From the NCBI GenBank assembly GCA_017958225.1, contig JAGDDD010000019.1:1-37061 (forward strand): a DNA stretch of 37,061 bases. The letters run 5' to 3'. The notes under the pieces are model-generated. The model saw only the letters and a list, made by a program, of their open reading frames with translations. It was not told the DNA's origin and ran no database searches. The translations under genes and the position numbers were made by a program. Position 1 is the stretch's first letter; each line of letters starts with the position of its first letter. Origin of the DNA: Alphaproteobacteria bacterium. Its GTDB lineage: Bacteria; Pseudomonadota; Alphaproteobacteria; CAAHEQ01; UBA3637. This document shows, piece after piece, positions 3,713 through 27,405 of this stretch.

Positions 3713-3761
3713 CTGCCCACCCTCTATCTGTTAATAACTGTTTTCATCATAATCTCGTATA

Positions 3762-3780
3762 TTTTAACAATTTGTTAAAA
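3762..3780. promoter_or_regulatory. Perfect AT-rich inverted repeat upstream of virB9
   Basis: TTTTAACA, then ATT, then TGTTAAAA forms a perfect 8-bp inverted repeat about 50 bp ahead of the virB9-like start, in the 112-bp gap behind the second virB8-like gene. It lacks a GC-rich stem and directly attached T-run, so it looks more like a protein-binding site than a terminator. It shares the 12-mer TTAACAAATTGT with the region ahead of the pilL-like gene. I could not identify a convincing -35/-10 pair here. Confidence 0.4.
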
Positions 3781-3824
3781 AAGCTACATATTTCGTTTTA
3801 TATTTGCCTGTTTTTCCTTTTTTA

Positions 3825-4562
3825 CTACACAGCATCCTGACGCTGCATTGTATAATCTCTGACCTTAAAGCCTAACGGGTTTTTCAACCGGTCCGCCCAA
3901 ATAACATCACGCGGTTGGTAAGCAACTTGCAAAACCACCGTCCAATGTGTTTCTTTGGGCTGTGGCGAATCATCCGACATTTCTGTCAAAGTAACGGATG
4001 CTACCCAAAGCTCCACGCCTCTGTAATCTGTTTGTTGCTTCAAAACACTGGCAATCTTAATCTGCCGCGTCAAATGACTTTCTTCAATGCGTTTAAGCAC
4101 GGATTGCACTTCTGACCGAAATTCGGCAAAGACAGCATCCGACGACATCCAACGCACAGGACCTTCCGCGCTCCACCGCGCTGCCAATTCAACGGTATCC
4201 GATGGAATATCGTGGCGCGCAACCAAATATTGCCTAATCATGTTTTCCGTAATGGTCGGCAAGATAGATTCGCCAATGTTCGGCTTTTCTATAGTAACGA
4301 CTTGCGCATTTTTATTTTGAAAGGTTAAAAAGAACGGATTCGTTCTGACCAGAGGGGATAAATTAAATAACGCTATCAACAAAATAATATTCGTGCAAAA
4401 GCTGCCCACAGCGACCACGGCGGCCGCACGCGCCGTCCACAGATAACGACGCTCCCGCAGATTCTCTTCTGAGGTTTCGTCTATCGTCTGCGCTTCAACA
4501 GCAGCCTCTTCCTTAACGGCAGAGGCCTTCTTGGGCGCCATTTTTTTGACAGCAACTTTCAT
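3825..4562 (-). CDS. virB8: VirB8-like T4SS inner-membrane protein (copy A)
   Basis: A 245-residue bitopic protein. A charged N-terminal cytoplasmic tail rich in Lys, Ala and Glu (residues 1-42) is followed by one membrane segment (about 43-70) and a periplasmic domain. The end 'NPLGFKVRDYTMQRQ' is the hallmark of the VirB8 NTF2-like domain, in which an 'NPLGF.V..Y' strand closes the fold. VirB8 is an inner-membrane scaffold linking VirB4, VirB6 and VirB10. The start follows AAGGAACGGCGGG. It lies just downstream of the small lipoprotein, giving a virB7-virB8-virB9-virB10 order. A second, diverged VirB8-like gene precedes it. TraM, TrbF and DotI/IcmL share this fold, so the exact subfamily is unsettled. 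Confidence 0.85.
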   Translation of the reverse strand: MKVAVKKMAPKKASAVKEEAAVEAQTIDETSEENLRERRYLWTARAAAVVAVGSFCTNIILLIALFNLSPLVRTNPFFLTFQNKNAQVVTIEKPNIGESILPTITENMIRQYLVARHDIPSDTVELAARWSAEGPVRWMSSDAVFAEFRSEVQSVLKRIEESHLTRQIKIASVLKQQTDYRGVELWVASVTLTEMSDDSPQPKETHWTVVLQVAYQPRDVIWADRLKNPLGFKVRDYTMQRQDAV

Positions 4563-4577
4563 CCCGCCGTTCCTTTT

Positions 4578-4757
4578 TTACGAGAACCATTCAGGCAGTC
4601 CGGGGGCCAATTCGACCTCCAAACATGCACACGGAGACTTTTTCAATTCCGAATAATCCGTGCCGATTCCGACAGGAGGTTGCTCATAAATCGATCCGCA
4701 AGCTGCCAACACAGCCACAACGGCAATGATTGATAAGAATAACCATACTTTTTTCAT
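4578..4757 (-). CDS. Small VirB7-like lipoprotein
   Basis: A 59-residue protein with a signal sequence 'MKKVWLFLSIIAVVAVLAAC', whose last four residues are a lipobox (LAAC), so it should be lipidated on Cys20. The mature part is only about 40 residues, with two further cysteines in 'PCACLEVELAPG'. The ATG at 4757 is chosen because AGAGGTGG lies 5 nt ahead; a GTG three codons earlier overlaps that box. Size, lipidation and position before virB8-virB9-virB10 match VirB7, the lipoprotein that stabilises VirB9 in the outer-membrane core. Sequence identity with known VirB7 is not claimed. A good promoter lies directly upstream. Confidence 0.7.
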   Translation of the reverse strand: MKKVWLFLSIIAVVAVLAACGSIYEQPPVGIGTDYSELKKSPCACLEVELAPGLPEWFS

Positions 4758-4789
4758 GTTTTCCACCTCTTTTATTGTTAGATAAGATG

Positions 4790-4818
4790 ACTATAGCAGT
4801 TTTATTTTTATAAGACAA
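4790..4818 (-). promoter_or_regulatory. Sigma-70-type promoter ahead of the VirB7-like gene
   Basis: Reading on the minus strand, TTGTCT (4818-4813) is followed by a 17-nt spacer and TATAGT (4795-4790). Both hexamers are close to consensus and spacing is optimal. The site lies in the 75-bp gap between the first virB8-like gene and the VirB7-like lipoprotein, so virB7-virB8-virB9-virB10 could be transcribed separately from the upstream secreted-protein genes. Confidence 0.6.
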
Positions 4819-4832
4819 CGATTTTTATCAAA

Positions 4833-5495
4833 TTATTTTTGAATACGTTCATCATATTGCCCGATAATAAAGCCCAAGGGGTTAGCTAACTCTGATGTCA
4901 AGCGCTCCCAGTCATCGATGTGAGAGACCACAAGGGCCGCCGTATAAGGCACACGACGCACGATTTGTCCGTTATTGCCGGGGAAAACTTTATCAAACTC
5001 GACCTGCCACACGTCTTGGCTGCGTGTCACTTTTTTAAACTCCACCGTAGAACGGGGTTGTTGCGTGTAAATACGCGGCAAATCTTCCGCGTCCGCGGCT
5101 TTTGTATACTGTTTGGCAAAATCACGATAAATCCAGGGCGCCGTCAAGGAGGCTAACTCACCACGCGGACCGACGCGCAACATAGCCGAAGCTTCATCTT
5201 TGAAATTTTCATGCCGCAAAATAATAAACCGACGCACAAGCAACTCGTCCAATTCCAGTTTAAATAACATATCCTGATTGATGGCGTCAGAAAACACAAA
5301 ATCTTCGGAAGCCTGCATATCTTTCGGAATGAGCTGCGATAAGACCTGCACTTGGGATGCCGCCCGCATCAATGTCACACACAAAACAAAGCCTATACTC
5401 AAGAATAACACCGCAAAAGCTTCGCAAATCCATGACAATTTGCGGGCGCGGTTGATTCTTTTTTCATACTCTATAGATAAGGGGATTTGCTTCAT
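4833..5495 (-). CDS. virB8: VirB8-like T4SS inner-membrane protein (copy B)
   Basis: A 220-residue bitopic protein with a short cytoplasmic tail, one membrane segment (about residues 20-46) and a periplasmic domain ending in 'ANPLGFIIGQYDERIQK', again the VirB8 closing motif. It is diverged from the copy at 3825-4562 outside this motif. Its start overlaps the stop of the upstream 520-residue protein gene by 4 bp (ATGA) with little Shine-Dalgarno, so translation is probably coupled. Having two VirB8-type proteins suggests a heteromeric scaffold, or that one is a TrbF/DotI-like partner. The division of labour is unknown. Confidence 0.8.
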   Translation of the reverse strand: MKQIPLSIEYEKRINRARKLSWICEAFAVLFLSIGFVLCVTLMRAASQVQVLSQLIPKDMQASEDFVFSDAINQDMLFKLELDELLVRRFIILRHENFKDEASAMLRVGPRGELASLTAPWIYRDFAKQYTKAADAEDLPRIYTQQPRSTVEFKKVTRSQDVWQVEFDKVFPGNNGQIVRRVPYTAALVVSHIDDWERLTSELANPLGFIIGQYDERIQK

Positions 5496-9723: not shown

Positions 9724-10608
9724 CTACTTTGACTGCTTGTCCGAGTCATTTTTATCATTGTCCTTTTTGTCGTCTTGCGCGGAAAGATAAGACGCCGGCA
9801 TATTCGCAATGGCTGATGACGCTAACACCTCCAGGTTAGAAGCCGACAACAGGTTGCCCATGTTGATTTGTGTGGCAATGGACATCAAAGCCCCCGTATT
9901 GTTACGAATTTGTTTGACAACGCTGTCCGCCTTATCACTGCCTTTGGAATTAGAGGACAATTTGTCTTGCGGCAAGGAAGCGGCCTCCTGTTGAGCCGTT
10001 AGCGCCAACGCATAACCGGCCGACGTTGCGTGCTTGAGCGCCTCGTTTCGACGCGACAGCAAAGCCTCCAAGCCATCCGGGCTCAAATCTTGCAAATCTT
10101 TGGCAAACAGGTTGTTTTTAATAATTTTTGTGCCCAAAGAGACCGCGCTTTTACCATTGATTTTGCGGAACTGACCGGCCAAACCTTTACCCTTTTTAAT
10201 CGCACCGTTGACATCTTTCCAAATGCCTTTGCCGTCTTTGTAAAGCTGCATACCTTGCTTGCCTAATGCTTTCAGTTCGCGCCAATCCGCGCCCCCCAAA
10301 AAGCCACTTAAAGCCTCGGCGTCTATACCAAACGTCGGTAAATAGTCTTTCAAAAGTTCGTCGCCCAAAATATCTTCCAACTGATCCAAGCCGGAAAAGT
10401 TGCCGGACATCAAAGCCGAGGCCACTGATGTTGTGGATTTAATCAATTGCGTCAATTGGAGCAATTGCGCCATGGTGTTTTTGGTTTGCTCCATCAAACT
10501 TTCTTCGTTCTGCACGTCCATCACAGGCACGCCGGCCCATACAGTCGTGCTCATGCTCAACCCAAAGCAGGCCATGCAAAACGTCTTGACTATGTTATGA
10601 TTTTTCAT
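9724..10608 (-). CDS. VirB5/TrbJ-like secreted helical protein, first gene of the operon
   Basis: A 294-residue protein with a signal peptide ending 'STTVWA' before GVPVMDVQN. The start at 10608 is preferred over one 7 codons upstream because GGAGG lies 6 nt ahead of it. The mature N-terminus and the following Gln/Leu-rich helix are VirB5/TrbJ-like. A Gly/Lys-rich middle (about residues 110-150) and a charged Asp/Lys tail follow. It is the first gene after a promoter with an embedded inverted repeat, and begins the T4SS run. Confidence 0.72.
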   Translation of the reverse strand: MKNHNIVKTFCMACFGLSMSTTVWAGVPVMDVQNEESLMEQTKNTMAQLLQLTQLIKSTTSVASALMSGNFSGLDQLEDILGDELLKDYLPTFGIDAEALSGFLGGADWRELKALGKQGMQLYKDGKGIWKDVNGAIKKGKGLAGQFRKINGKSAVSLGTKIIKNNLFAKDLQDLSPDGLEALLSRRNEALKHATSAGYALALTAQQEAASLPQDKLSSNSKGSDKADSVVKQIRNNTGALMSIATQINMGNLLSASNLEVLASSAIANMPASYLSAQDDKKDNDKNDSDKQSK

Positions 10609-10639
10609 CCATTTCCTCCGTAACTGCAACCCTATTGTG

Positions 10640-12642: not shown

Positions 12643-13821
12643 TTACTCTATCACCGCTTGTTGTCTCAATTCTTTCAGCAAGTCGTTGGATTGTTTTTCC
12701 AAAGATTCCATTTCCAACCGCTGACGCAAGACTTTATCATCCGGCATCACGGATATTTGACGTTGGTCGCATTTCATAAAAATAACAAACTCTGTCGGCG
12801 TCTGTATCGGCTCTGACGCTGTCCGCATCGGCGTTTGCTCCAAAATTCCGGCCATTTCCGGCGGCACGCGTTCCACGACGACATCGCCCACAGGCCCCGA
12901 CCCGGGCGCACCGTATTGTTTGGCCAGCTCGTTGAATTGTTCGCAATTTTGCGCCATCTTGACCGCATTAGCCACCATGTCGATTTGATCTTTAGGCACC
13001 AAAATCTGACTTAAAACGACCGAGGTCATTTCTGATGAGGTCATCCCGGGCATTTTTTCACGCAACAGGGCAATATAATAACCGGACTTGCCGGCCACAG
13101 GCTTTGACAATTGACCGACATTCATCACCGCCACCACTTTTTGCAATAGGGCATCCAACGTATCGGCCTTCACCCAACCTAAATCACCACCGGCTTTGGC
13201 ATGCACGCCCGACGAATATTTTTGTGCAATTTGAGAAAAAGATTCGCCCTGCACAACGGCATTAAAAGCCTCCTGTGCTTTCTGTTCGGCCTGCTCTTTG
13301 TTTTTCCCATAAGGAATATAAATCACGCTCAGCAAATACCGATCTGCACTCATATCCTTTTTAATACTGTCCCGCAATTTTTTAATTTGCTTGGCGGAAA
13401 TATCCTCGGCTTTAACCTGTTGATGTTGCATATAGCGCAACCATAACAAGTCCGCGCGCGTTTGTGCCTGCAAGGTTTCCATCGCAACGCCCTGTTTGGC
13501 TAAATTCGCCTTGAGCTTTTCCGGCTGTATCTGATTTTGCCCGGCCAAATAGACAATCGCCTGTTCCACTTCGGCATCCGACACTTCTAGGTTGAGTTGC
13601 TTGGCGGCCTGTATTTTCAGTTTTTCATCCACCAAATCTTCCAACACTTTTTGACGTGTGGCTTTGTTGTCTTTGACTTGCGGATCAAAGGCGCGGCGCA
13701 TGGCTAACCGTTGCGACACATCGTAATCAGAAATCACCTCGTCATTGACCAGGCGCAAAACCTCGCCCGCGAAGGCACATTGTGCCATTAAAAAACCGAC
13801 AAATAAAAAAACATAACGCAT
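12643..13821 (-). CDS. surA: Periplasmic chaperone / peptidyl-prolyl isomerase SurA
   Basis: A 392-residue periplasmic protein with a signal peptide (residues 1-18, 'QCAFA' before GEVL). The SurA N-domain (about 20-150) begins 'VLRLVNDEVISDYDVSQRLA'. A parvulin domain follows at about 160-260 with 'SSGVHAKAGGDLGWV'. The second parvulin-like region (about 265-355) is less conserved. SurA escorts outer-membrane beta-barrels, LptD among them, to the BAM complex, which fits its place directly after the LptF-LptD gene. The two genes overlap by one base (TAATG), implying coupled translation. Confidence 0.94.
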   Translation of the reverse strand: MRYVFLFVGFLMAQCAFAGEVLRLVNDEVISDYDVSQRLAMRRAFDPQVKDNKATRQKVLEDLVDEKLKIQAAKQLNLEVSDAEVEQAIVYLAGQNQIQPEKLKANLAKQGVAMETLQAQTRADLLWLRYMQHQQVKAEDISAKQIKKLRDSIKKDMSADRYLLSVIYIPYGKNKEQAEQKAQEAFNAVVQGESFSQIAQKYSSGVHAKAGGDLGWVKADTLDALLQKVVAVMNVGQLSKPVAGKSGYYIALLREKMPGMTSSEMTSVVLSQILVPKDQIDMVANAVKMAQNCEQFNELAKQYGAPGSGPVGDVVVERVPPEMAGILEQTPMRTASEPIQTPTEFVIFMKCDQRQISVMPDDKVLRQRLEMESLEKQSNDLLKELRQQAVIE

Positions 13822-16800
13822 TACATACCACCCAATGTCTTTAAGAATACTCTAAAAAAGAAAGAGGTATCCCCCTTGTAATCAGAATCTTTTGTGAACT
13901 CTTTTTCCCCTGTAAATGCTAAAATAAGGCACTCGTTCTCATATTGCAAACCCCCTTCGGCTTTAATAGGCGATCCACCGTTGGCAAAGTTGTATTGATA
14001 CCGGCCGAACATGGACCAATCTTGCGTCAATTTAGACACCACCGCCACCGTGATTTCTTCCATTTTTTCCCGTTCAAATGCACTGGAAGGCTGATACAGA
14101 TATTCCACACTCACGCGCAAAGGATCACGCCCGACCGACAAGCCTAAAGAACTTCTTTCCTGTGTAAAATTGTCTTGATTAAAGCGGAAACGATAAGTCA
14201 AACGCACATCTTTGTAATCGACATAAACGCGACCGACATAAGAGGAAAAATAATTATCAAGCCCACTGTTGCGTGGCGGTTTTTCGCCTTCACGAATACG
14301 ATACGATTGTCCGACCATGGCCGATATGGACAAACTGTCCGGGCCGAAATAACTCCACTGCATACCATAATTGACGCGAGAGCCCGTTTCCACGCGGTCA
14401 AAGCCGGCATACCGATTGGGTAAGAACAAATTGGCATCGTCTAATTCAAAATCAACGCTATCTTCGTTAGGAATGACCCTGCGCGTTTTTGTGTTGGGCG
14501 CAAACACACCCATCACAATCGGCTCTAAAACTTGCGAATAATTGTCGCCGCTTTGCATCCACGGATAGCGCAACTTTGCGGATATATTGGAATATAAGCG
14601 GCTGGCCTGTGTATCGTCGTTACGCGCCACATGCACGGAATAACCGTCGGCACGACCGAGCAACACCGTGTCCATCAAAAGTCCGTTATCAAAAACATAA
14701 GGCAAGGTAAAAGATTGTTGTAACGTCAGGCGTGACGAGTCCGGGTTTTGTTGTGTATAAACACCGGCGCCGTTGACCAAAGTGGTGGCATACAACCCGT
14801 TCCAGAAAGGCTTGGTCGTGTATTGGTAATTAAATTGCGGCACATAAGGCATCGTGTCTGAAGAAATATTGCGACGCAAACTTTGGAAAGATAAAAAGCG
14901 CGCATATGCATAATCTTGTTGTCCGAAGTAATCTAAATGCGCATAACTGGCAATCCAGGGATCTTCATCATCTATGTCGCGCAACGGATAGCGTCTGAAA
15001 TAACTGTTGGAGCTTGTCCGAAACAACTGCCCTTTAAAGCGGAAAGCGTCGTTGATATCCCACTCATAGAAAGCGTCAATATGGCCCTGGTTCGCCCCGT
15101 CTTTGTCCTGAGTGCCCGAAAAATTGACATTGAGTGTGCTTTCATTATACAAACCGCGATACGTGCCTTGCATCAAAGGTGTATGTGTTACGGACCATGT
15201 CGGATACAGCGTCACATCCTGCGCATCTGTCAAGGCCCAAAAGAACGGCGTTTCAATGCCCATGCCCAACTCACGCCCATGAGATAAGCTAGGGAACAAA
15301 AAGCCCGTTTTGCGTTTAACTTGAAAATCCGGATAACGCAGATAAGGCCAATAAAACACCGGCACTTTTTTCGCATACAACAGCGCGTGTTTATAGGTGA
15401 ACTCCTGCTCCTGCTTATCGTGAATAATTTCGCTGGCATCCACACGCCACAAAGGCGATTTCCCGCAACAATAAGTGCAAGGCGTAAAGGACACATCCGA
15501 CAAAACCGTCGTATTGCCCGCATCTTCACGATGAATATTTTGCGCAATAAATGTGGAGCCGTCGGCCAGGCGCATTTCTGTTGCCGAGACCGCACCTTGC
15601 TTCAAATCGCCCGACAATTCCAATTCATCCGAAGACACCCGCACACCGTCAGGGCGCGTCAATTCTACATGACCTTTGGCCATCATGCGATCTGTCTTTT
15701 TTTGATAAATCAATTCATCAGCGGTTAAAACCGTAGCGCCTTGACGCACGATGACATGTCCGGACGCCGTCACAATTTCTTTTTTTTCATCATAGGAAAC
15801 CGCGTCCGCTTCAAAATCGACCGGCATCGTTTTATCCATCGTCGTATCTTGCACGAACTCGTTTTGGCCTTTGTGGATGGTGTTCGGCAATAGGCTGTTG
15901 GACGCCGCTTGCGCCTGCGTTCCTGCCACAATCAAGGCCAGGCACATAAAAGCCTTAAACCAACGTTTCAAAAGGCGTTCCGGATGCGCGCACAAGATCC
16001 ACACGCCCAAGCCGATAGGCACTAAAATGTTCAACACCATCAGCGACAGACACCACAGATTCTTTTGCGACAAATTAGAAAAGCCGATGGCAAACGATTG
16101 CAGTAAAATAACCGAAATGACCGCAAAATATATGCGCGAGGCCTGCCCTCGTCGATTATAATACCCCAATAAAAGCGGGAACAAGCCCACGAACAAATAC
16201 ACATACGCATAAAGCGGTCGTGTCAAGCGTTCTACCGCTTCCACACGATATTCGCGCACGTCTTTGGCGGACAGCCCGTTGCCTTTTTCCGTTGCGGTTA
16301 AAAGCACATGCAGTGGCAATTCTGCCTCGCCGGGCATCCGTTGGCGCACACTTTCTTTGTTTTCCAACGCCATGGTTTGCTTATCAAAACTCAATGACGA
16401 AAAGATGCCTTTTTCTTTGTCATATTCAAAGCGTTTGCCATGCGTCATTTGAATATGAATAGCCTCTTCCGTCGGCATAAAAATACCTTCCTGCGCGGAC
16501 AAAACGACATGCTTTTGTGGGTTTCTTCTGTCGTAAATTAAAATGCCTTTTAACTCGCCCGACGGCTTGAACACGCGCGTATAGACAACAAAATTGTTCG
16601 GCAGAACATTGAAAATACCTTCCTGAATCGACACATGGACCAACCCGTTACGGATCTTGAACTGCAAGTGCTTAAATTGGGTGATAGAACTGGGAATCAG
16701 CCACAACGTCATAATATAGCCGCACACCACCAAGACCGTCGCTAACCAAAAGGCCGGACGAATAAGTTGCCACAGATTCATACCGCACGCCTTCATCACG

Positions 16801-17060
16801 ACCAATTCTTTATCGGACAACAGACGATGATACACAAACATCACCGTCACAAAAAAGGCAATCGGCGTAATGATGGCCACAAAGTTGGGTAACGCCAACA
16901 AAGTCAAATGAATAAACAGGCCGATGGCCACGCCTTTATTGACGATCCAGTCAATCATGCGCAAACTTTGGGACAGCCAAATCAGCGTCGTCAAGCCCAA
17001 GGCTATCAACAAGAAGCCGACCACAAGTTGTTTGAAAATGTATCTGTCCAATATGTGCAT
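13821..17060 (-). CDS. lptF-lptD: LptF-LptD fusion: LPS-export permease joined in frame to outer-membrane LPS translocon
   Basis: One uninterrupted 1079-codon frame. Residues 1-363 are LptF, the inner-membrane permease of the LptBFG transporter: 'MHILDRYIFKQL' start, 'SDKELVVMKACGMN' coupling helix, a periplasmic beta-jellyroll (about 130-260) and later membrane helices. Residues 400-1079 are LptD: an N-terminal OstA beta-jellyroll ('FEADAVSYDEKKEIVTASGH'), the cysteine motif 'FTPCTYCCGKSPLWRV', then the barrel ('PVFYWPYLRYPD' onward) with a late Cys in 'NECLIL'. The join carries a signal-peptide-like segment (residues 364-385) with possible cleavage after AQA. Normally lptF, lptG and lptD are separate; lptG is not here. 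Two products could arise by signal-peptidase cleavage or by internal initiation at TTG 15971 or ATG 15947. A lost lptF stop, by assembly error or real mutation, is the alternative. Confidence 0.9.
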   Translation of the reverse strand: MHILDRYIFKQLVVGFLLIALGLTTLIWLSQSLRMIDWIVNKGVAIGLFIHLTLLALPNFVAIITPIAFFVTVMFVYHRLLSDKELVVMKACGMNLWQLIRPAFWLATVLVVCGYIMTLWLIPSSITQFKHLQFKIRNGLVHVSIQEGIFNVLPNNFVVYTRVFKPSGELKGILIYDRRNPQKHVVLSAQEGIFMPTEEAIHIQMTHGKRFEYDKEKGIFSSLSFDKQTMALENKESVRQRMPGEAELPLHVLLTATEKGNGLSAKDVREYRVEAVERLTRPLYAYVYLFVGLFPLLLGYYNRRGQASRIYFAVISVILLQSFAIGFSNLSQKNLWCLSLMVLNILVPIGLGVWILCAHPERLLKRWFKAFMCLALIVAGTQAQAASNSLLPNTIHKGQNEFVQDTTMDKTMPVDFEADAVSYDEKKEIVTASGHVIVRQGATVLTADELIYQKKTDRMMAKGHVELTRPDGVRVSSDELELSGDLKQGAVSATEMRLADGSTFIAQNIHREDAGNTTVLSDVSFTPCTYCCGKSPLWRVDASEIIHDKQEQEFTYKHALLYAKKVPVFYWPYLRYPDFQVKRKTGFLFPSLSHGRELGMGIETPFFWALTDAQDVTLYPTWSVTHTPLMQGTYRGLYNESTLNVNFSGTQDKDGANQGHIDAFYEWDINDAFRFKGQLFRTSSNSYFRRYPLRDIDDEDPWIASYAHLDYFGQQDYAYARFLSFQSLRRNISSDTMPYVPQFNYQYTTKPFWNGLYATTLVNGAGVYTQQNPDSSRLTLQQSFTLPYVFDNGLLMDTVLLGRADGYSVHVARNDDTQASRLYSNISAKLRYPWMQSGDNYSQVLEPIVMGVFAPNTKTRRVIPNEDSVDFELDDANLFLPNRYAGFDRVETGSRVNYGMQWSYFGPDSLSISAMVGQSYRIREGEKPPRNSGLDNYFSSYVGRVYVDYKDVRLTYRFRFNQDNFTQERSSLGLSVGRDPLRVSVEYLYQPSSAFEREKMEEITVAVVSKLTQDWSMFGRYQYNFANGGSPIKAEGGLQYENECLILAFTGEKEFTKDSDYKGDTSFFFRVFLKTLGGM
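15906..15971 (-). other. Internal signal-peptide-like segment between LptF and LptD
   Basis: Codons 364-385 read 'LKRWFKAFMCLALIVAGTQA' plus QA, with basic residues, a hydrophobic core and a likely signal peptidase I site (A-Q-A before ASN). LptF ends with its C-terminus in the cytoplasm, so this segment would insert with its cleavage site in the periplasm, as a real LptD signal peptide would. A TTG (15971) and an ATG (15947, with AAGG just upstream) could serve as internal starts. Confidence 0.7.
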
Positions 17061-17072
17061 AGCCGGATTATA

Positions 17073-17957
17073 TCAAATTTTATGCGCCTTTGACAAGGGA
17101 TGATTTTGGGTAAGCATTTTTTGCAATCTTTCCTGCAAGACGTGCGTATAAATCTCGGTGGTGGAAATGTCCGCATGCCCTAGCATTTTTTGGACAGAGC
17201 GCAAATCAGCATCATGCGCAATCAGATGGCTGGCAAACGAGTGGCGCAACACGTGTGGAGACACGCGGGCGGGGTCGATACCCACCAACATGGCCCGTTT
17301 TTTTAACTCTTTGAAAAAGGTATCCCTCGTCATATAGCCTTGGCGCGCCGACGATGGGAACAGCCACTTGGACGGACGGCTCAAATGGGCTTCCCGCTCC
17401 ACCAACCATTGACGCAACGCCTGTCGCGCCGGCTCGTTCAAAGGCACCATGCGTTGTTTTGACCCCTTGCCCGTTACTGTCAAAACAGAACTGTCTTTGA
17501 GCACAGCCGACAAAGGCAGAGATACCAACTCGGACACACGCAGGCCGGATGCATACAACATCTCTAATTGTGCCTTCAAACGCAAAGGCTCACAGCCTTC
17601 CAGCAACAAAGTGACCTCGTCTTCGGATAAATATTTCGGCAAAGATTTTTCGGCTTTAGGCGCATCCACCAAATCAACAGGGTTATCTTTGCGCACATTT
17701 TCCGAATACAGATAACGGTAAAACTCGCGCAGGGCCGACAACCGCCGTGCTTGTGTTTTAGAGGAAATATGATGTTGAGCGGTTGCCCGTAAATACGCTT
17801 GAATATCCGCGCTGTCTGCGCTCAATAAGGTCGCGTGGCGCGGACGCAAAAACTCGGCAAAGTGGTCTAAATCAGATTTATAGGCGGCAATGGTGCAGGC
17901 ACTGGCTCCCCGTTCTGCCACCATGACTTGTAAAAATGCTTCTGTATAATCCGCCAT
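17073..17957 (-). CDS. xerD: Tyrosine recombinase XerD-like (XerC/XerD family)
   Basis: A 294-residue site-specific recombinase that resolves chromosome dimers at dif. From the start at 17957, the N-terminal SAM-like DNA-binding domain covers about residues 1-85. The catalytic set is complete: Arg140 ('ASGLRVSEL'), Lys164 ('TGKGSKQRMVPL'), His235 and Arg238 ('SPHVLRHSFASHL'), His261 ('MLGHADISTTEIY') and nucleophile Tyr270. The start was chosen by alignment to the family ('MADYTEAFLQVMVAERGAS'); no strong Shine-Dalgarno precedes it, and the frame is open about 40 codons further upstream. LptF-LptD begins 12 bp downstream. Whether it is XerC or XerD needs the partner gene. Confidence 0.92.
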   Translation of the reverse strand: MADYTEAFLQVMVAERGASACTIAAYKSDLDHFAEFLRPRHATLLSADSADIQAYLRATAQHHISSKTQARRLSALREFYRYLYSENVRKDNPVDLVDAPKAEKSLPKYLSEDEVTLLLEGCEPLRLKAQLEMLYASGLRVSELVSLPLSAVLKDSSVLTVTGKGSKQRMVPLNEPARQALRQWLVEREAHLSRPSKWLFPSSARQGYMTRDTFFKELKKRAMLVGIDPARVSPHVLRHSFASHLIAHDADLRSVQKMLGHADISTTEIYTHVLQERLQKMLTQNHPLSKAHKI

Positions 17958-17986
17958 CGCACGTTCGTGTGCCGAAAACACACGCC

Positions 17987-18133
17987 TTATTCGTTCTGCA
18001 ACACTTCTGCGGAGAAAGTTTGCGTTTGGGTGGTCTGTTGGACGGGAATATCCCAAAATGCCACATACAGCGCCCAAGCGACAACCAATAAAATGACTAT
18101 TTTGAATAATTTGCGTTTATTTTGTTTTTCCAT
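17987..18133 (-). CDS. Small single-pass membrane protein, function unknown
   Basis: A 48-residue frame, ATG at 18133 and TAA at 17987. It starts 'MEKQNKRKLFKIVILLVVAW', with a basic N-terminus and a membrane helix (about residues 10-27), followed by a polar periplasmic tail rich in Gln and Thr. A weak AAGAGTG box and a good promoter lie upstream, and xerD follows after 29 bp. The family is not recognised; it would be missed by a length cut-off. Confidence 0.6.
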   Translation of the reverse strand: MEKQNKRKLFKIVILLVVAWALYVAFWDIPVQQTTQTQTFSAEVLQNE

Positions 18134-18762: not shown

Positions 18763-20036
18763 CCACGCCGATACTTGTTTTAATCATCTGCATTGTCCTG
18801 TCTTTCTTCTTTTCCGCTACAGAAACCGCTTTTACCGCAGTATCGGACATACGTATGCGGGCGTTAGCCAAAGAAGGCAGTCGCTCGGCAAAAACCGTGC
18901 TGAAATTGCGGCAAAATCCGGATCGCTTTCTTAGCGTGATTTTGTTTGGCAATAATGTCGTCAATATTACGCTGACGGCGGTGTGCACAGCCTTGTGCGT
19001 TTCTTTGTTCGGACGGTATTGGGGCGTCTTGGCGGCCACCTTTGGCGTCAGTTTTTTGGTGCTGATTTTCTGTGAAATTATCCCCAAAAGTTTTGCTATT
19101 CGCAATCCCAATCGTATTGCTCTGTTTGGCGCACAACCTTTGGCGGTTTTTACCTATATTCTGGCGCCGATTTTGGTTTTTCTGAACGCTTTGGTGCGCA
19201 GTTTGATGAAAAGTTTAGGCCTGTTGCGCCGCGAACATTTTGCCACCTCGGCCAAATTGGAACTGAAAGGCGCCTTGGAACAGCACAATGGTGCCGACAT
19301 TAAATCTCAACGCCCGATGTTGAAAAGCGTGTTGGAGTTGGATGAGGTCATTTTGGACGACATTATGACGCACAGAAAGCAGATGGTGTCCTTTAACATT
19401 GACACACCTTTGAGCGAGTTAAAACAGCAAATTGCCGCCTGCCCTTATACGCGTGTGCCTATGTGGGAAAAATCGCCGGACAAAATTGTCGGTGTTTTAC
19501 ACGCTAAAGTCTTTTTCCGCCTGTTGTCCGATCCGCGCACGCAAGATCAGTGTTTAGAAAAAGCCCTGATGGCCCCTTGGTTTGTGCTCAACACAACTTC
19601 TGTTTTAAAGCAACTTCAGGCGTTCAAACAGCGTCGCGAGCACTTTGCTTTGGTGATAGATGAATATGGTGTTCTGCAAGGCTTGGTGACATTGGAAGAT
19701 GTGTTGGAAGAAATCGTCGGCGACATTGTGGATGAGACGGATCGCACCAGCAACAATGGCTTGTTTGCGCAAATGCAAAAGGATGGTAGCGTTATTGCGG
19801 ATGGCAGTTATCCTTTGCGCGATCTCAATCGTCAATTCGGATGGAACTTGCCGGATGAGCAAGCCTCGACCTTGGCCGGCCTTCTGTTATATGAAACAGA
19901 GCGGATTCCCCGACAGGATATTCCTTACAGTTTTTATGGCTATACTTTCCAAGTCATCAATAAACAAGGAAATCAACTGGTCAGTATTCGCATTACGCCG
20001 CAACAGCCGGCGCCTTCGCCCGTCGCCAAAGATTAG
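18759..20036 (+). CDS. CNNM/CorC (HlyC/CorC) family membrane protein with CBS domains
   Basis: A 425-residue inner-membrane protein of the DUF21-CBS-CorC_HlyC family, linked to Mg2+/Co2+ export or homeostasis. DUF21 (about residues 1-180) has membrane helices, 'FFFSATETAFTAVSDIRM', 'GNNVVNI' and 'CEIIPKSFAIRNP'. A CBS pair follows at about 205-330, with 'YTRVPMWEKSPDKIVGVLH' and 'VIDEYGVLQGLVTLEDVLEE'. The C-terminal CorC_HlyC domain (about 345-420) includes 'ADGSYPLRDLNRQFGW'. It starts on the aroK stop and its own stop overlaps the convergent pilR stop by 3-4 bp. Confidence 0.92.
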   Translation: MTTPILVLIICIVLSFFFSATETAFTAVSDIRMRALAKEGSRSAKTVLKLRQNPDRFLSVILFGNNVVNITLTAVCTALCVSLFGRYWGVLAATFGVSFLVLIFCEIIPKSFAIRNPNRIALFGAQPLAVFTYILAPILVFLNALVRSLMKSLGLLRREHFATSAKLELKGALEQHNGADIKSQRPMLKSVLELDEVILDDIMTHRKQMVSFNIDTPLSELKQQIAACPYTRVPMWEKSPDKIVGVLHAKVFFRLLSDPRTQDQCLEKALMAPWFVLNTTSVLKQLQAFKQRREHFALVIDEYGVLQGLVTLEDVLEEIVGDIVDETDRTSNNGLFAQMQKDGSVIADGSYPLRDLNRQFGWNLPDEQASTLAGLLLYETERIPRQDIPYSFYGYTFQVINKQGNQLVSIRITPQQPAPSPVAKD

Positions 20037-21136
20037 ACACCCATGCTGGATGTAAGTTGATCTTGCATGGAGAAGGTGCCCATGACGACCCACGCCACGA
20101 CCAAAGCGATGAACAAAATAGCGATAGAGTTTAACAAGGCTGCCTTTTGCTCAATAGAACGGATACTGTCTTCCAACCACTCGTTAGCCATTTGATCCAA
20201 CGCGGCCGCGAAGTTATCCAATTCTGAATAAATCTGCAAGTCACCGACCACTTCTTTATCCGGGAAGTTTAAACCCGTCATGGCCAACGCATCACCCAAG
20301 TTTTCACCGTTGCTGACGTAAGCCAATGTTCTGTCAATTCTGTAAAGCAAATAAGGCGAAGCGTCTGAACGCAAAATACGCAACGATTTGGACACCGGTG
20401 TTCCGGATTTGACCAAAGCGGCCAAAGACATCAACCACGACACACCGACCATGATACGATACAACGACCAAGGCGGAATATTATCCATGGAAGCGCGCAA
20501 ATGCCCTTTCCAACGTGGCAATGTCAACGCAATCAAGATGACGAATATCGGCAAGATAGAGAACAAGACCAATGTATTTTCGCGCACCCAAGCAGACAAC
20601 GCCACCAAAGTCGCACCTTGTCCTCTCCACACCAAGTTCGGCACGGCCTCCACCATCGGCGGCACCATGAATTCACCCACGGCCCAAATAATCAAGGTGG
20701 TCGCGAACATCAAGAACAACGGATAAGCAATAGCACCAACGATAGGCTCTTTCATACGCTTGACGCTTTCCACCACTTTCACCAGGTTGTCCAAAGCATC
20801 ATCCAAGTTGGCAATATCACCGACGGACAACATCAACAATTCGTTTTGAGGCGCCCAACCACGCAAAGCCATAGAAAAACTTTCACCGTTTTGAACGGCG
20901 CGCATCCAAGCCGAAATCGCCACCGCCATCGAATCGTGGATATTTTTTCCGTTATCGGAAGCGATGTTATACATACGTTCTAACGCATCCATCAAGGAGA
21001 AGCGGTTTCTTAGCAAAGACGCCAACTTACGATACACACGCAAGCGTTCAGAAATACTGTGCTTGACCATAAATTGTGCATAAGTTATCTCAAAGCGTTT
21101 GGCGTTTTTATGCGGCTTAGGGCTTTTTCCTACCAT
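20033..21136 (-). CDS. pilR: PilR-like inner-membrane platform protein (type II secretion F / type IVb pilus)
   Basis: A 367-residue T2SF-family protein. Two cytoplasmic helical-bundle domains are separated by a membrane pair in the middle (about residues 145-215), and a C-terminal membrane helix lies at about 335-358. 'LLRNRFSLMDALERM' and 'LVKSGTPVSKSLRI' are the paired T2SF motifs that hold the platform against the assembly ATPase. AAGGAG precedes the start. It is the last gene of the pilL-N-O-P-Q-R-like operon, 11 bp after the ATPase. Length and order match PilR of IncI plasmid thin pili. Confidence 0.88.
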   Translation of the reverse strand: MVGKSPKPHKNAKRFEITYAQFMVKHSISERLRVYRKLASLLRNRFSLMDALERMYNIASDNGKNIHDSMAVAISAWMRAVQNGESFSMALRGWAPQNELLMLSVGDIANLDDALDNLVKVVESVKRMKEPIVGAIAYPLFLMFATTLIIWAVGEFMVPPMVEAVPNLVWRGQGATLVALSAWVRENTLVLFSILPIFVILIALTLPRWKGHLRASMDNIPPWSLYRIMVGVSWLMSLAALVKSGTPVSKSLRILRSDASPYLLYRIDRTLAYVSNGENLGDALAMTGLNFPDKEVVGDLQIYSELDNFAAALDQMANEWLEDSIRSIEQKAALLNSIAILFIALVVAWVVMGTFSMQDQLTSSMGV

Positions 21137-21147
21137 GTGTCGTCTCC

Positions 21148-23295
21148 TTAATATACTGGGGGTTCATCAAGCAACCCCGTCCAACGTTCAACTTCTTCAA
21201 TATCTATTGTGCCATTTAGCATACGCGTTATGGCATTATCTTTCAAGGTTTTTCCGCCTAAATCAGAAATCCAGTGTTCAATCGCCTTATAAGTCTCGCC
21301 TTTTAACATCAACTTGAGGAAGGTTGAATCCGGCAACAAGAACTCACCAACCACGGTTCGACCAATCACACCACGGTGGGCACAATGCGGGCATCCGACG
21401 CCACGCAGATAGGCTTTTTCCATACCGATATCACCCAAGGCGGTCCGCAACCTTTGCACCGACGGATGTTTCGGTTGTTGAGACACCGGCACACGACAAT
21501 GCGGGCACAAAGTTCTAAACAAACGTTGAGCCATCAAGCCGCGCACCAGGCTGGGATCTTCCAACTTAAAGTCTTCCACACCGATATCTTTCAAACGGCT
21601 TAACGTCGCCGGCGCACTGTTCGCATGGACGGTTGTCCACACGCCATGGCCTGACAAAGCGCCTTGGAAAGCCAAGTTCGCTGCTGACAGGGTTCGAATT
21701 TCACCGATCATCATCATATCCGGGTCAGAACGCAACGCCGCTGACAAGGCCTTTGTGAATTCGCGTTCCTTGACTTCTTCCACAGTCGCGTTCGTCACAG
21801 GCATTTGCCGCGCACCCGGAATAGGATATTCAGGCGGGTCTTCCACTGTAATCAGGTTGATTTCATTATTACGTTCGCGCAACAAGTTAATCATATTGCG
21901 TTGTAAGGTTGTTGATTTACCGGAACCGGTCGGACCGGACACGAACACCAAGCCAATAGGAATCGCCCGCAGACGATAGAACATATCATTTTCTTCCGGC
22001 GTAAAGCCTAACGCCAACAGATTGCTCGCCGGATCGTTGATAGAGCCTGCCGTATCCGCATACAACAAACGCAAGACGACATAGCGAGAGCCGAAAGCAA
22101 TCGGGTTAAACTGCATACGAATAGCCAAGACTTCTCGGGGCAAACGCAACCGCCCTTGAGAGCCACGCAAAGGCGTATCGCCTGACTTTTGAGCCGCCTG
22201 ATATTCATTTTGTGCGTAGTTCGCATCGGAAATATCCGCCGACGCAAAGGCCGCACGCACGAAGGCTTCTCCCCACTCGGCTTTGTATTCCATCGCCAGT
22301 TGAAGCATACCGTCTACACGATACAGAATTGTTGTCACGTCTGTGGACACAATCACGTGAATATCGGAAGCGCGTAACTCGGCCGCTCTTTGCACCACCG
22401 TCACAAAGTTTTGCTGCATCACGATTTGATCGTCAATCGCTTCGGCACGCGTTACCACAACATTTTTCTTGGCCGCATAATCGTAAATGGCGCTGATAAC
22501 GGCCATCGTCACAATTTCGGGCTCGCCTATCTGTAAGCGATGCTTTTTGGCATAGGCCTTAAAGGACATGACACGACCATCATTTTGATATTGGTCGGCC
22601 ACCAAGAAACGCCCGTTAGAGAACAAGGCTAACAACAAGCGCAAATCTTCACGCAAAGGCACAGCCCCGCCCGGCGCGGTCACACACTCGTTACCATCGG
22701 CAAACAATGAAGACACCGAGATTTCTGATGTCGTCACCAAACGAGTCGTTCGACCGGTCGTATCACGAGCCGGCGGCATAATACCTTGTGGCGTTTGTTT
22801 GTCTTTGCCTTCTGCGGCTGGAGCGTCTTTTGCTACGTCTTCCGCTTGTGGCTCTTTTTCAGCCTCTTTAGGTTTGCGTAATAATTCTGCAGGAATCTTG
22901 TCCATCGGCAAGGATGTCTCTTTGCGACGCGGTCCGACTTCTTCTGTTACGGTCGACGGAACCGACTCCACAGGCACTTTTTCCGGCTCTGTTGGCACAG
23001 ACGGCGTTTCATCCTTGTGCGCGGCCACAATATCGTCTTTGGCTATCTCTGGTTGCTTTTCTTCAACAGGAGGCACATCTTTGGCCGGCGATTCGTCCGC
23101 CGGTGCTGTCTCCACAGGGGTAGAATTATTTTTTTGGGTAGAATTGCCTTTGCGTTGAGGGGCGACAGATCCTTTGAAGCGTGGAGCGACAGAGCCACCA
23201 CGTGCCGGCGCAACCGACCCCTTCACAGATGGTTTATCGGAAACCTCTGACATGGGGCTCGTTGCCTGCGTATTTGGGCTTTGCAGATCCGCCAT
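21148..23295 (-). CDS. pilQ: PilQ/PilB-type secretion ATPase with long low-complexity N-terminus
   Basis: A 715-residue GspE/VirB11 superfamily ATPase. Walker A 'GPTGSGKSTT' at 454-463, Asp box 'LITVEDPPEYP' at 481, Walker B 'RSDPDMMMIGEIRT' from 522, His box 'TTVHANSAPATLSRLK' from 554. Two CPHC pairs (597-600, 635-638) form a zinc site as in PilB. Residues 1-190 are an unusual Pro/Glu/Lys/Ala-rich extension that includes an exact 8-residue triple repeat. The enzyme should power subunit extraction or secretion from the cytoplasmic face, docking on PilR. As no VirB11 gene is visible, it may also serve the T4SS; that is inference. GGGGGA precedes the start. Confidence 0.92.
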   Translation of the reverse strand: MADLQSPNTQATSPMSEVSDKPSVKGSVAPARGGSVAPRFKGSVAPQRKGNSTQKNNSTPVETAPADESPAKDVPPVEEKQPEIAKDDIVAAHKDETPSVPTEPEKVPVESVPSTVTEEVGPRRKETSLPMDKIPAELLRKPKEAEKEPQAEDVAKDAPAAEGKDKQTPQGIMPPARDTTGRTTRLVTTSEISVSSLFADGNECVTAPGGAVPLREDLRLLLALFSNGRFLVADQYQNDGRVMSFKAYAKKHRLQIGEPEIVTMAVISAIYDYAAKKNVVVTRAEAIDDQIVMQQNFVTVVQRAAELRASDIHVIVSTDVTTILYRVDGMLQLAMEYKAEWGEAFVRAAFASADISDANYAQNEYQAAQKSGDTPLRGSQGRLRLPREVLAIRMQFNPIAFGSRYVVLRLLYADTAGSINDPASNLLALGFTPEENDMFYRLRAIPIGLVFVSGPTGSGKSTTLQRNMINLLRERNNEINLITVEDPPEYPIPGARQMPVTNATVEEVKEREFTKALSAALRSDPDMMMIGEIRTLSAANLAFQGALSGHGVWTTVHANSAPATLSRLKDIGVEDFKLEDPSLVRGLMAQRLFRTLCPHCRVPVSQQPKHPSVQRLRTALGDIGMEKAYLRGVGCPHCAHRGVIGRTVVGEFLLPDSTFLKLMLKGETYKAIEHWISDLGGKTLKDNAITRMLNGTIDIEEVERWTGLLDEPPVY
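23152..23223 (-). repeat. Triple 8-residue repeat (x-GSVAP-xx) in the ATPase N-terminus
   Basis: Residues 25-48 read KGSVAPAR, GGSVAPRF, KGSVAPQR, three consecutive 24-bp units. Basic, disordered repeats like this may bind acidic partners or act as a linker. Confidence 0.85.
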
Positions 23296-23316
23296 ACCAA
23301 GTCCCCCTATACCCTA

Positions 23317-24261
23317 TTAGTCTACATTGACAGGTATTGTGGGTTGTCCCATCCGCAAAACTTCTTCCTGATCGCCATACACAAAGACAACTTCATTTTT
23401 GGTGATGTCTTTGACGACATAATCTATGCCGAAGATATCGCCTTTCTTCAAGGTGAAAATCTTGCCGGATTTGTCATAGACGCGCGCTGTCAGTTTGTTC
23501 TTGACACCCTTGATGTCCAAGATGGTCAATTCTGACAAGAAGGAAGGAACCACAGGAGAAACAAAAGAGTCTTCAACGTCGGTATCCACCTCGGTCACTT
23601 CCGGAGCGGACGGATCTGATGCATCCACCGTGATGTTTTTCGGTGTGGTTGTCTGCACAGGCGTGCTCGGGCGTTTTTGAGACAACGCCATCAAACGTTC
23701 TGTTTTTTGCAAATTGGCCACTTCACGTTGTTGATCCAACAGGTCTAACTGCTTTTGTTTTTCCAAAATCTCTTGGCGGATACGTTCTTGTTCCTGCATC
23801 CATTCCACACGGGTCCGAATCACGCTTTCGCGTTTTTCGATTTCGTCCAAACGGGCTTGACGATATTTGGCTTTCAAGGCTTCCAAATCGTTCTTCAAGG
23901 TTTCACGTTCCGTTTGCAATTTCAAGAACACGTTACCACGTTCCAAGTCCGCCATTTCATGGAAGACCTCACTGGTAATACGACCCAACAACTGTTCAGA
24001 CGGGGTGGCGTTCTTGCTTGTCGAAATCTCCATCGGAGAGGGCTCACGAATCGGGCTGTCCGTCAAGCTGGGCAATTCGGCTTCGACCGGCGTGCCTAAA
24101 GAAGGACGCAACGGAAAATCCACACGCTCTTGTGTTTCCTCACGCAGATAGGGCTCAGCAACATCAATGCTTTCGCTTTCTTGCGCTTGAACAGAAAAGG
24201 CACCCATCGCTGCACATGCCACAACGGCTGCAATGCATAATTTATTGTCCTTATTTTTCAT
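23317..24261 (-). CDS. pilP: PilP-like periplasmic protein of the type IVb-pilus-like system
   Basis: A 314-residue exported protein. The start at 24261 is preferred (GAGGGAAG upstream; signal peptide 'AAMGAFSVQA' before QESE). An acidic linker follows, then a coiled coil (about residues 100-190, with 'RQEILEKQKQLDLLDQQREV') and a C-terminal beta domain (about 235-314: 'LTILDIKGVKNKLTARVYD', 'LKKGDIFGIDYVV', 'VFVYGDQEEVLRMGQ') resembling PilP, the inner-membrane linker to the secretin. It overlaps the PilO2 gene by 11 bp. Confidence 0.82.
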   Translation of the reverse strand: MKNKDNKLCIAAVVACAAMGAFSVQAQESESIDVAEPYLREETQERVDFPLRPSLGTPVEAELPSLTDSPIREPSPMEISTSKNATPSEQLLGRITSEVFHEMADLERGNVFLKLQTERETLKNDLEALKAKYRQARLDEIEKRESVIRTRVEWMQEQERIRQEILEKQKQLDLLDQQREVANLQKTERLMALSQKRPSTPVQTTTPKNITVDASDPSAPEVTEVDTDVEDSFVSPVVPSFLSELTILDIKGVKNKLTARVYDKSGKIFTLKKGDIFGIDYVVKDITKNEVVFVYGDQEEVLRMGQPTIPVNVD

Positions 24262-25741
24262 AGATTCTTCCCTCATAACTCCAGTTATTGTTCAAAGCTG
24301 ATTCAGATCTTGGTTGATAGGTAATCTTCACCAGCTCCATTGCTGTAAATTTCTCGAAAAAGGTTTCCCAAGCGGGCGGATCAAATGGCGACGAGAACGA
24401 GAACGCCAAATATCTGTAACTCTGTCGAGCCGGAATCACATCTTCTGATTGTTTCTGTGTTTCCTCGGCAGGACCGATTCGTTTTTCGCCCACGGACAGC
24501 TGCATCGGCACGCTCAACGCTTGCGAAATATCCACCATCTCTTGCTCCAACTCTTTCAAAGGAGCGGTAGGTGTAGATGCGTCTGTCGGCAACGGTGTTG
24601 CATAATGGACAACGACTTCTGCAGAAGTTCCGGTTTCATTGATGCGCTTTTCAACAACTTTGGCATCAATCTTGTATTCTTTGTAAGCGGACTCTAACCA
24701 CGCCAGACGACCACCTTTTTCCCAGGTTTTATCCCAACGAGTCGTGATTTGTTCCGGCGTGCAGACGATTTCGCCCAAGCCCCATCCCGGGACGATCAAA
24801 CTCTTTAACTGCATCGAATAATTCAGGCAGCGTTCCAAGAAGGGTTCGATTTTGACCAATTGTTCCCAAGGCTTCGCCTCGTCTTGCTGAGGCGCAACAG
24901 GTTTAATATCTGTCTGTGCCGGCGCTTCCGGCTTAAAATCAACCTTTTCGGTCGGCGTAATCTGCAACAATCTGTAAAGACCATAAACAACGCCGCACAA
25001 CAGGATAATGATAATCAAGGCCACACCAATCAAGATTTTGGTGCTGCGCATAGCGCCCAAACTCATCAGATGGACTTGCAAAGAATTGCGCAACAACTCT
25101 TCCAAATCCATTTCTTCGGTGCCCTCAACATGCCAAGACTGCGGCGCAATTTTATAGCCCCAATCAGGCACGGACAACATAGAGAAGAAAGCGTTCTTGG
25201 CATCTTCTTCCGATGTATAGAGCACATCGTTTTCCGCCAAGATCAAATCGTTACGAGCGGCGATAAACCACCAACCCTCATCAACTTTGAAAACAGCCAA
25301 GAAGGACGACTGATCCGACAAAGCATCCAACAGAGCAATACCCGCCACGACCTGACGTTCGGAATGCCCTCTGGAACGTTTACCAATCGCATACTGCGGG
25401 GCGCGACCAAAATGTGTGCAATACAGGTCAAACTCCGGATCTGTTTCCATCGTCTGACTGATTTCTTCAATCGGGTCGTCCGCATCTTGAATAGGCTGCC
25501 AAAACAGGCCTACAGCGTAATTGGTCTTGCCGACTTTAATCACCAGTTTGGTGTCTTCCGTCTCTTCCTCGGGCACATCTTCCGCCAGCTCAGGCACAGG
25601 AGCCGCCGGAGGCTCAGCTTGCGCTGCAGCAGACGGCGTTTCCGGAGGCGTTTGCTCAACTTGAGCGGGCGCCTCTCCTGCCTGTGTCGGCAGGGCGAAA
25701 CGATATGTCCGTTCAGATGAATTGTCTTTCATCTCAGCCAT
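24251..25741 (-). CDS. pilO: PilO2-like inner-membrane alignment protein
   Basis: A 496-residue bitopic protein. The N-terminus is Pro/Ala/Glu-rich (residues 1-60). A cytoplasmic domain (about 65-225) contains 'YAVGLFWQPIQ', 'YAIGKRSRGHSERQVVAGIA' and 'GWWFIAARNDLILAENDVLY', as in type 4b pilus PilO2. One membrane helix follows (about 235-262), then a periplasmic domain. It likely forms the inner-membrane ring joining ATPase and secretin. AGGAG lies 8 nt ahead of the start. Confidence 0.85.
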   Translation of the reverse strand: MAEMKDNSSERTYRFALPTQAGEAPAQVEQTPPETPSAAAQAEPPAAPVPELAEDVPEEETEDTKLVIKVGKTNYAVGLFWQPIQDADDPIEEISQTMETDPEFDLYCTHFGRAPQYAIGKRSRGHSERQVVAGIALLDALSDQSSFLAVFKVDEGWWFIAARNDLILAENDVLYTSEEDAKNAFFSMLSVPDWGYKIAPQSWHVEGTEEMDLEELLRNSLQVHLMSLGAMRSTKILIGVALIIIILLCGVVYGLYRLLQITPTEKVDFKPEAPAQTDIKPVAPQQDEAKPWEQLVKIEPFLERCLNYSMQLKSLIVPGWGLGEIVCTPEQITTRWDKTWEKGGRLAWLESAYKEYKIDAKVVEKRINETGTSAEVVVHYATPLPTDASTPTAPLKELEQEMVDISQALSVPMQLSVGEKRIGPAEETQKQSEDVIPARQSYRYLAFSFSSPFDPPAWETFFEKFTAMELVKITYQPRSESALNNNWSYEGRIYEK

Positions 25742-25752
25742 CTTTTATGCTC

Positions 25753-27405
25753 CTAGAAATGCTCCATTCTTGATTCAGGCGCCAACGGAGAGACCAAAAT
25801 CTCAGGCGTTAACAGGATGACTAACACATTTCTGTCTTCCTGGGCATAGGCTTGTCCGCCCAAAATTGACAACTTCGGTTGGCCAATACCTGATGTGGTT
25901 GTTCTGGCTTGAATGGTTTCGAAACCGGTCAAGACCAAGGTTGAACCAGAGCGCATGGCGATTTCTTGGACGAAGCCGCGTGTCTGTAATGTCGGCAATT
26001 GAACTGTTGTCACAGAACTATCTGTCTCCGCAGTCGTTTCGCCTTCTTCACTGCTATCGCTACCGGAAGAGCTGTCGCTGTTGGGCACATCCGGGTCAAC
26101 AGAAGAACCGTCGGATGAGAAGTTTTCCAAGGATACCAAGTCTGTCAAGGTCATTGTGAACAACAAGATCAAGCGACCGTTATCCAAAATGCGCGGCAAC
26201 AATTCCATGGTGAAACCATAGTTCAACACTTCCGGTGTCAATTGGACCGTTACGTCGTAACCACCATCACCGTTGGAATCTTTTTGAATTTCCGTGCTGG
26301 CAACATAACTCTTTTGTGTCGTTACTTGCACCGGCGCGACTTTGTTGTTTAAAGTCGTCACAGAAGTGCTGGTCAGCAAAGCGGTTTTTCCTTGTGTGGA
26401 AATCGCTTCAATAATGCCTTCAGTTCCATACCACTTGCTCTTCGGGTCAATCAACTGCATGCTCAAAGAACCCGGCAAGTTTGCACCAGCCACAAAGGAC
26501 GAACTAAAGTTAGCGCCTAATTTGTGGTTTTTGAAGGCCGCTGTCAAATCTAAGCCGTATTTATCATCAGAGGACAAGGACACAGACAACACCTTCACAG
26601 AAATGGCCACCTGACGTGACATTTTCTCGTTCAAGTCTTGAATATAACGAGCCACCTTTTGAATAACAAACGGAGGCGCCGTCACTGTGATTGTGCCTGA
26701 TGTTTTGTTGATGCTCTTTTGATCGCTGAAGGAGCCCATGACCAAGGTCAAACCTTCTTCAATTTGCTCCCAAACGCTCAACGCCACCGAGGTGCTCATC
26801 GACAATGTGGAGGCGGAGCCTTCGCTGGAGTTCGGCGTTCCGGACAAACTGGCCGACAAAGACGTATCGCTTACCGGCAAAGCATACACAGTAAAGACGC
26901 GTGTTTCTTGATCATAGAAGGACACTTCGCCTTTGCGATAACGCCACCAAATCGAATATTTGTTGGAGATATAGTCTAACAAGCCGGACAACGTGCCTTC
27001 ATAATTGACGGTAATTGTCTCGGTCGGTAACTTATCAGCCGCGCGCAACTCTTCGATTGAGTAACGCAGGCCTGTTACATTGCGCAATTCATCAACCAAG
27101 GTCACTAAATCGACGGGGTCGTTGATGGCAATTGTAATGGAGTCTTGCGAATCGAGTTCGGCCGGCAATTTTTCACCGCCGACAATCTTGAAGCTGTCTT
27201 GGCCTAACCAAATGTCTTCTTTGGTAACAACCGTATCCACAGGCTCTGCACGATCAGGGATCTTGGCGACTTCCACCAATTCGCTGACATCGCCATAGAC
27301 TGTTTCGACATATTCTGCCGTCTCGTCCACGTGCTGCACAGGGATACAACCCGCCAACGCGACAAGCACAGCCCCTAACAAGCAAAACTTTGTATTACTC
27401 TGCAT
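25753..27405 (-). CDS. pilN: PilN-like outer-membrane secretin lipoprotein
   Basis: A 550-residue secretin. The start at 27405 has GGGAGG 6 nt ahead (an ATG two codons upstream abuts the box). The lipobox 'LVALAGC' puts lipid on the Cys ahead of IPVQHVDE. N-domains (about 80-270) include an STN-like region ('LVDELRNVTGLRYSI'). The secretin core (about 290-550) has 'VTTLNNKVAPVQVTTQKSYV', 'NYGFTMELLPRILDNGRLIL' and the closing 'GSTLVLTGFETIQARTT' and 'NVLVILLTPEILV'. A Ser/Asp/Glu-rich insert lies near 435-470. Lipoprotein secretins of this kind form type IVb pilus channels. It overlaps the pilL-like gene by 11 bp. Confidence 0.92.
   Translation of the reverse strand: MQSNTKFCLLGAVLVALAGCIPVQHVDETAEYVETVYGDVSELVEVAKIPDRAEPVDTVVTKEDIWLGQDSFKIVGGEKLPAELDSQDSITIAINDPVDLVTLVDELRNVTGLRYSIEELRAADKLPTETITVNYEGTLSGLLDYISNKYSIWWRYRKGEVSFYDQETRVFTVYALPVSDTSLSASLSGTPNSSEGSASTLSMSTSVALSVWEQIEEGLTLVMGSFSDQKSINKTSGTITVTAPPFVIQKVARYIQDLNEKMSRQVAISVKVLSVSLSSDDKYGLDLTAAFKNHKLGANFSSSFVAGANLPGSLSMQLIDPKSKWYGTEGIIEAISTQGKTALLTSTSVTTLNNKVAPVQVTTQKSYVASTEIQKDSNGDGGYDVTVQLTPEVLNYGFTMELLPRILDNGRLILLFTMTLTDLVSLENFSSDGSSVDPDVPNSDSSSGSDSSEEGETTAETDSSVTTVQLPTLQTRGFVQEIAMRSGSTLVLTGFETIQARTTTSGIGQPKLSILGGQAYAQEDRNVLVILLTPEILVSPLAPESRMEHF

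Follow-up and report, generated by a model that had tools for sequence, protein, structure and literature searches.

A fused lptF-lptD gene in a family of gut Alphaproteobacteria, with a predicted signal peptidase I site at its join

Lpt genes and polyproteins closest to the fusion

Lipopolysaccharide (LPS) is exported by the seven-protein Lpt pathway, of which LptF is an inner-membrane part and LptD the outer-membrane gate. In E. coli, Caulobacter and most Pseudomonadota, LptF and LptD come from two genes as two primary products. A polytopic inner-membrane protein that is made in one piece with an exported protein is known from FbcH of Bradyrhizobium japonicum, a cytochrome b/c1 polyprotein whose signal peptide is cut. 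An internal signal peptide within a membrane protein has also been described for the Streptomyces Rieske protein, where it is of the Tat type (PMC13186574).

The locus analyzed here lies in a window of 37,061 nucleotides (the whole stretch of DNA that was analyzed: positions 1 to 37,061 of contig JAGDDD010000019.1, assembly GCA_017958225.1, from an Alphaproteobacteria bacterium). Both of its halves are full-length homologues of the separate LptF and LptD with matching folds, but here a single frame encodes them, and the LptD signal peptide lies within it. As in FbcH, the two parts are fused via the signal peptide of the exported partner, cleavage being predicted here; whereas both FbcH products remain in one inner-membrane complex, one of the products here would go to the outer membrane. 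The Rieske protein differs in using Tat and also in what follows the signal: there it is the C-terminal domain of a single membrane protein, not an outer-membrane protein in its own right. No description of a natural LptF-LptD fusion was found in the open-licence literature, in line with the earlier note on this DNA, whose reader knew of none. Internal signal peptides in membrane proteins are an established principle; the joining of Lpt parts destined for two membranes is new as far as we can tell.

One frame for LptF and LptD, and its distribution

The fused gene occupies 13821–17060 on the minus strand, from an ATG at 17060 to a stop that ends at 13821, and has 1079 codons with no in-frame stop (translation table 11). 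The earlier reading of a single frame holding a full LptF and a full LptD is borne out by this clean open reading frame and by its Pfam and NCBIfam matches. On the same strand, the LptF permease domain (PF03739, E 1.7e-67) covers residues 6-356 (15993–17045), the N-terminal jellyroll of LptD, LptD_N (PF03968, 5e-9), residues 417-552 (15405–15812), and the LptD beta-barrel match (PF04453, 2.7e-44) residues 666-1015 (14016–15065), the barrel continuing to the C-terminus. The permease half was rightly named LptF rather than LptG, because it reaches 231.7 bits against the LptF equivalog TIGR04407 (cut-off 230) and only 95.5 bits against the LptG model TIGR04408. In an AlphaFold model of the fused protein (mean pLDDT 76.6, pTM 0.47), the LptF half forms six membrane helices (2-42, 46-82, 96-143, 265-298, 307-333 and 335-356), with the periplasmic jellyroll between TM3 and TM4, and a seventh helix (360-381) is added after them. 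The model matches both LptD (top) and LptF structures in Foldseek, and profile comparison with solved structures finds the LptF chain 6s8h_F (1.8e-26) and the LptD chain 5iv9_A (8.8e-48). The jellyroll N-domain and the C-terminal beta-barrel of LptD are both recognized by Pfam and Foldseek. Cysteines C528 and C531 of LptD_N and C1044 of the C-terminal barrel are invariant; they are candidates for linking the N-domain to the barrel, and their presence would fit an exported LptD.

A xerD-type recombinase gene (17073–18077, minus strand; Phage_integrase and SAM-like domains) lies directly upstream, in the same order in relatives. Downstream follow surA (12643–13821, minus strand; SurA_N and rotamase domains), which overlaps the stop of the fused gene by one base (TAATG), and then the genes for KsgA and FolD. 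Elsewhere, the window holds a type IV pilus-like cluster (20033–28336, minus strand; PilO, TcpQ, secretin, T2SSE ATPase and T2SSF protein). Around the lpt and pilus genes there are type IV secretion-like genes (2135–5495 and 9724–10629, minus strand; 30863–33286, plus strand), comprising a CagX/VirB9-like gene, two VirB8-like copies, a weak T4SS (VirB5-like) match and a CagE/TrbE/VirB4-like ATPase.

An intact frame of about 1080 codons is present in 33 of the 38 LptD-bearing genomes (13 genera) of the window's family (43 genomes sampled), and in none of the 38 is there a stop at the join. The five interrupted frames are explained by contig ends (G009, G032, G064), a run of N (G027) and a frameshift inside the barrel (G063), none of them at the join. 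A scan of named genomes (records titled 'Alphaproteobacteria bacterium', partly the same genomes as the 38) gave 36 loci of the same clade, fused wherever the join is spanned; these are metagenome-assembled genomes, many from the gut of ruminants, yak, deer and rabbit, and also from the rumen. In outgroup loci (L108 and L113-L120, for example), lptF, lptG and lptD are separate genes. The window's genome comes as a draft of 42 contigs at 85% completeness, and an assembly or sequencing error might have been suspected of fusing two genes; that explanation is refuted, its remaining probability being practically nil, because relatives from 13 genera and many hosts, assembled independently, share this frame. 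The alignment of relatives proposed in the earlier note therefore went in favor of the fusion: the full-length fused frame is conserved, and neither a stop or frameshift at the join nor a uniform separation of the two genes, which the note had named as grounds for giving it up, occurred among the 38. Five family genomes rated 97-100% complete (G002, G003, G005, G007 and G018) lack not only lptF-lptD but also surA and the close xerD homologue. Because all of these are missing together, the whole neighborhood is absent from the available sequence (unassembled, masked or lost), and a loss of lptF-lptD as such was rejected and the five left uncounted.

The fused sequences form one clade with a support of 100 both in a tree of LptF and in a separately built tree of LptD, which on this phylogenetic evidence shows a single origin of the fusion. 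The nearest outgroups, from sister families (G034, G053 and G194), share the gene order xerD-lptF-lptD-surA, lptG having moved away from between lptF and lptD, but keep the two genes separate: in G034 they are adjacent, with LptD starting a few bases past the LptF stop, and in G053 the two genes overlap briefly, the start of lptD lying in a different reading frame from the end of lptF. In both, LptD starts with a signal peptide at a place equivalent to the join, and a small frame-changing indel in such a layout would fuse the genes, with the signal peptide ending up within the protein. Searches for LptD in 190 genomes of the class and 120 of the phylum (overlapping sets) also returned, among the matches listed, 11 LptD frames of at least 1000 residues elsewhere (G084, G210, G109, G163, G106, G129, G204, G086, G070, G276 and G294); they were rejected as fusions, with no LptF match in frame, and in most of them an LptF/LptG match occupies a different, overlapping frame. 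LptG-LptD fusions suggested by protein-search frame lengths in G048, G042 and G051 were likewise discarded, because those lengths evidently run through some stops and the genes are in fact separated by them. Within the sampled class and phylum genomes, and among the matches listed, the fusion appears confined to the window's family.

The join and its predicted processing

After TM6, a positively charged cytoplasmic loop (residues 357-369; 15954–15992, minus strand, as for all features of the join), with a net charge of +2 to +9 across 36 sequences, leads into a signal-peptide-like segment at residues 364-385 (15906–15971) that ends in A-Q-A at 383-385. A signal peptidase I cut is predicted at 385/386 (AQA^AS; 15903–15908), followed by a probably flexible linker of residues 386-412 (15825–15905; AlphaFold pLDDT <50). 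The AlphaFold model gives the same order, with helix 360-381, a disordered stretch at 380-412 and then the LptD jellyroll. Under a home-made cleavage-site matrix built from 28 signal peptides, this segment ranks first in the whole protein of the window with a score of 16.1, the next best site elsewhere reaching 1.9. The join was thus found at the positions where it had been placed earlier. LptD has no N-terminal signal peptide of its own; its signal is internal to the fused frame, and therefore the whole product would be a polyprotein of which only the cut half is a standard LptD.

In each of the 36 sequences that cover the join (35 named loci plus the window's own), a small-X-Ala motif ends the hydrophobic stretch, whereas in segments of equal width elsewhere in the protein the same motif is found in a median of 33% and a maximum of 91% of sequences, never in 100%. 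The features of a signal peptidase I substrate (a positively charged n-region, a hydrophobic core, a small residue at -3 and Ala at -1) are present in 36/36, though in 73-85% of sequences a loose form of this grammar also fits LptF around TM5. By the home-made matrix, the junction comes first among cleavage-like sites in 27/36 proteins and no lower than fourth in 35/36. The join keeps its grammar of positive loop, hydrophobic helix and small-X-Ala while sequence and length drift. Such a conserved signal-peptide join supports processing by signal peptidase, as the earlier note had proposed; it has the look expected of a signal peptidase I site within a polyprotein, and cleavage there is predicted.

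Were the product left uncut, LptD would be held covalently to LptF through the seventh helix as one trans-envelope protein. The join could serve as a membrane anchor, the matrix scores at the join are low in some relatives (2.9 in L081, 2.1 in L092), and the same family keeps LptC and LptA joined (see below). An anchor would have no need of a small-X-Ala motif, however, and the motif is kept in all 36 sequences. From the predicted site to the LptD fold there are only 11-27 residues (median 14), about 4-9 nm when extended, which falls below the usual width of the periplasm. Such a tether is considered very unlikely.

A different possibility, raised in the earlier note, is that translation starts anew within the join, so that LptD would carry its signal peptide at the N-terminus in the usual way and the open frame would be incidental. 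The two codons named there sit as described, in frame within the join (TTG 15971 at residue 364, ATG 15947 at residue 372), many relatives have some ATG, GTG or TTG in the join, and the outgroups that resemble the ancestor begin LptD at an equivalent place. Initiation within the join is nevertheless disfavored: no start is conserved in position, many relatives are without an ATG, and in L093 the frame lacks ATG, GTG and TTG altogether from the end of TM6 to the hydrophobic core. In addition, the stop-free join of the 38 genomes is accompanied by a signature of translation. Pooled pN/pS in close pairs is 0.47 from the end of TM6 to the cut site, 0.21 from the cut site to LptD_N and 0.11-0.13 in the domains, with pS equal across join and domains (0.52-0.57), and the length of the join varies from 37 to 55 residues across the family, in frame in every case. 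Because pN/pS is below 1 and length changes are always in frame, the join is translated and constrained, loosely. Initiation in the join as the source of LptD is therefore judged unlikely, and it would not do away with the long product; extra starts at the TTG or ATG are possible in the window's own genome.

The reading preferred here, with good though not full confidence, is that lptF-lptD is a single gene for a polyprotein that is cut by signal peptidase I, the LptD half being exported. LptF would insert in the inner membrane, its C-terminus facing the cytoplasm, and the former LptD signal peptide would act as a seventh segment, N-in/C-out, that starts Sec export of the LptD half. Signal peptidase I would then cut after A-Q-A (385/386); LptF would remain part of LptB2FG, the ABC transporter for LPS, and keep the used signal segment as an additional C-terminal helix, and LptD would be released to SurA, encoded by the next gene in the operon, and to BAM. 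The consequence would be 1:1 synthesis of the two proteins. With one gene and a conserved signal-peptide-like cut site, components of both membranes apparently come from a single message.

The rest of the Lpt machine and what the fusions may mean

LptC and LptA are also encoded together, in one 348-codon frame of the window's genome (G000:C42:63383-64426; L061:2384-3427, minus strand), after which an LptB-type ABC ATPase gene adjoins. Matches to LptC and LptA share one frame across the window's family; in the other families tested no such fusion was seen among LptC frames, which have about 200-260 codons there apart from a single frame of 313. No description of an LptC-LptA fusion was found in a search of open-licence papers. 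None of the nine relatives examined has a hydrophobic segment at the LptC-LptA join, and because that join is without such an internal signal, the pair should stay joined, anchored by the LptC helix, and probably forms a permanent bridge.

A separate LptG-like gene lies on another contig (G000:C29, L062), scoring 206.6 bits against LptG, below the cut-off of 240, and LpxC, a marker of lipid A synthesis, is present (1.5e-96), so that LptA, LptB, LptC, LptG and lipid A synthesis are all represented in the window's genome. LptD is present as well; LptE (PF04390) was not detected by profile search in this genome (85% complete) or in G004, G010 and G014, is weak in most relatives and is above the cut-off in family member G023 and outgroup G053. 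Near lptG there is also a lipoprotein-like open reading frame of 187 residues without a Pfam match (L062:6083-6643).

Taken together, the balance leans modestly towards a lineage that rebuilt its Lpt system from fused genes, with a cut LptF-LptD that would force co-translational export and equal synthesis, and a permanent LptC-LptA bridge of fixed length with one LptA per LptC. If this is true, cells deliver a barrel protein of the outer membrane as the tail end of a protein of the inner membrane. It then becomes testable whether LptD export comes to depend on the membrane-protein (SRP) route, whether the machine works with inner-membrane transporters and outer-membrane gates in a ratio of one to one, and whether the LptC-LptA fusion sets the bridge at one LptA. 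The family would then offer a natural experiment on the limits of simplification of the Lpt bridge.
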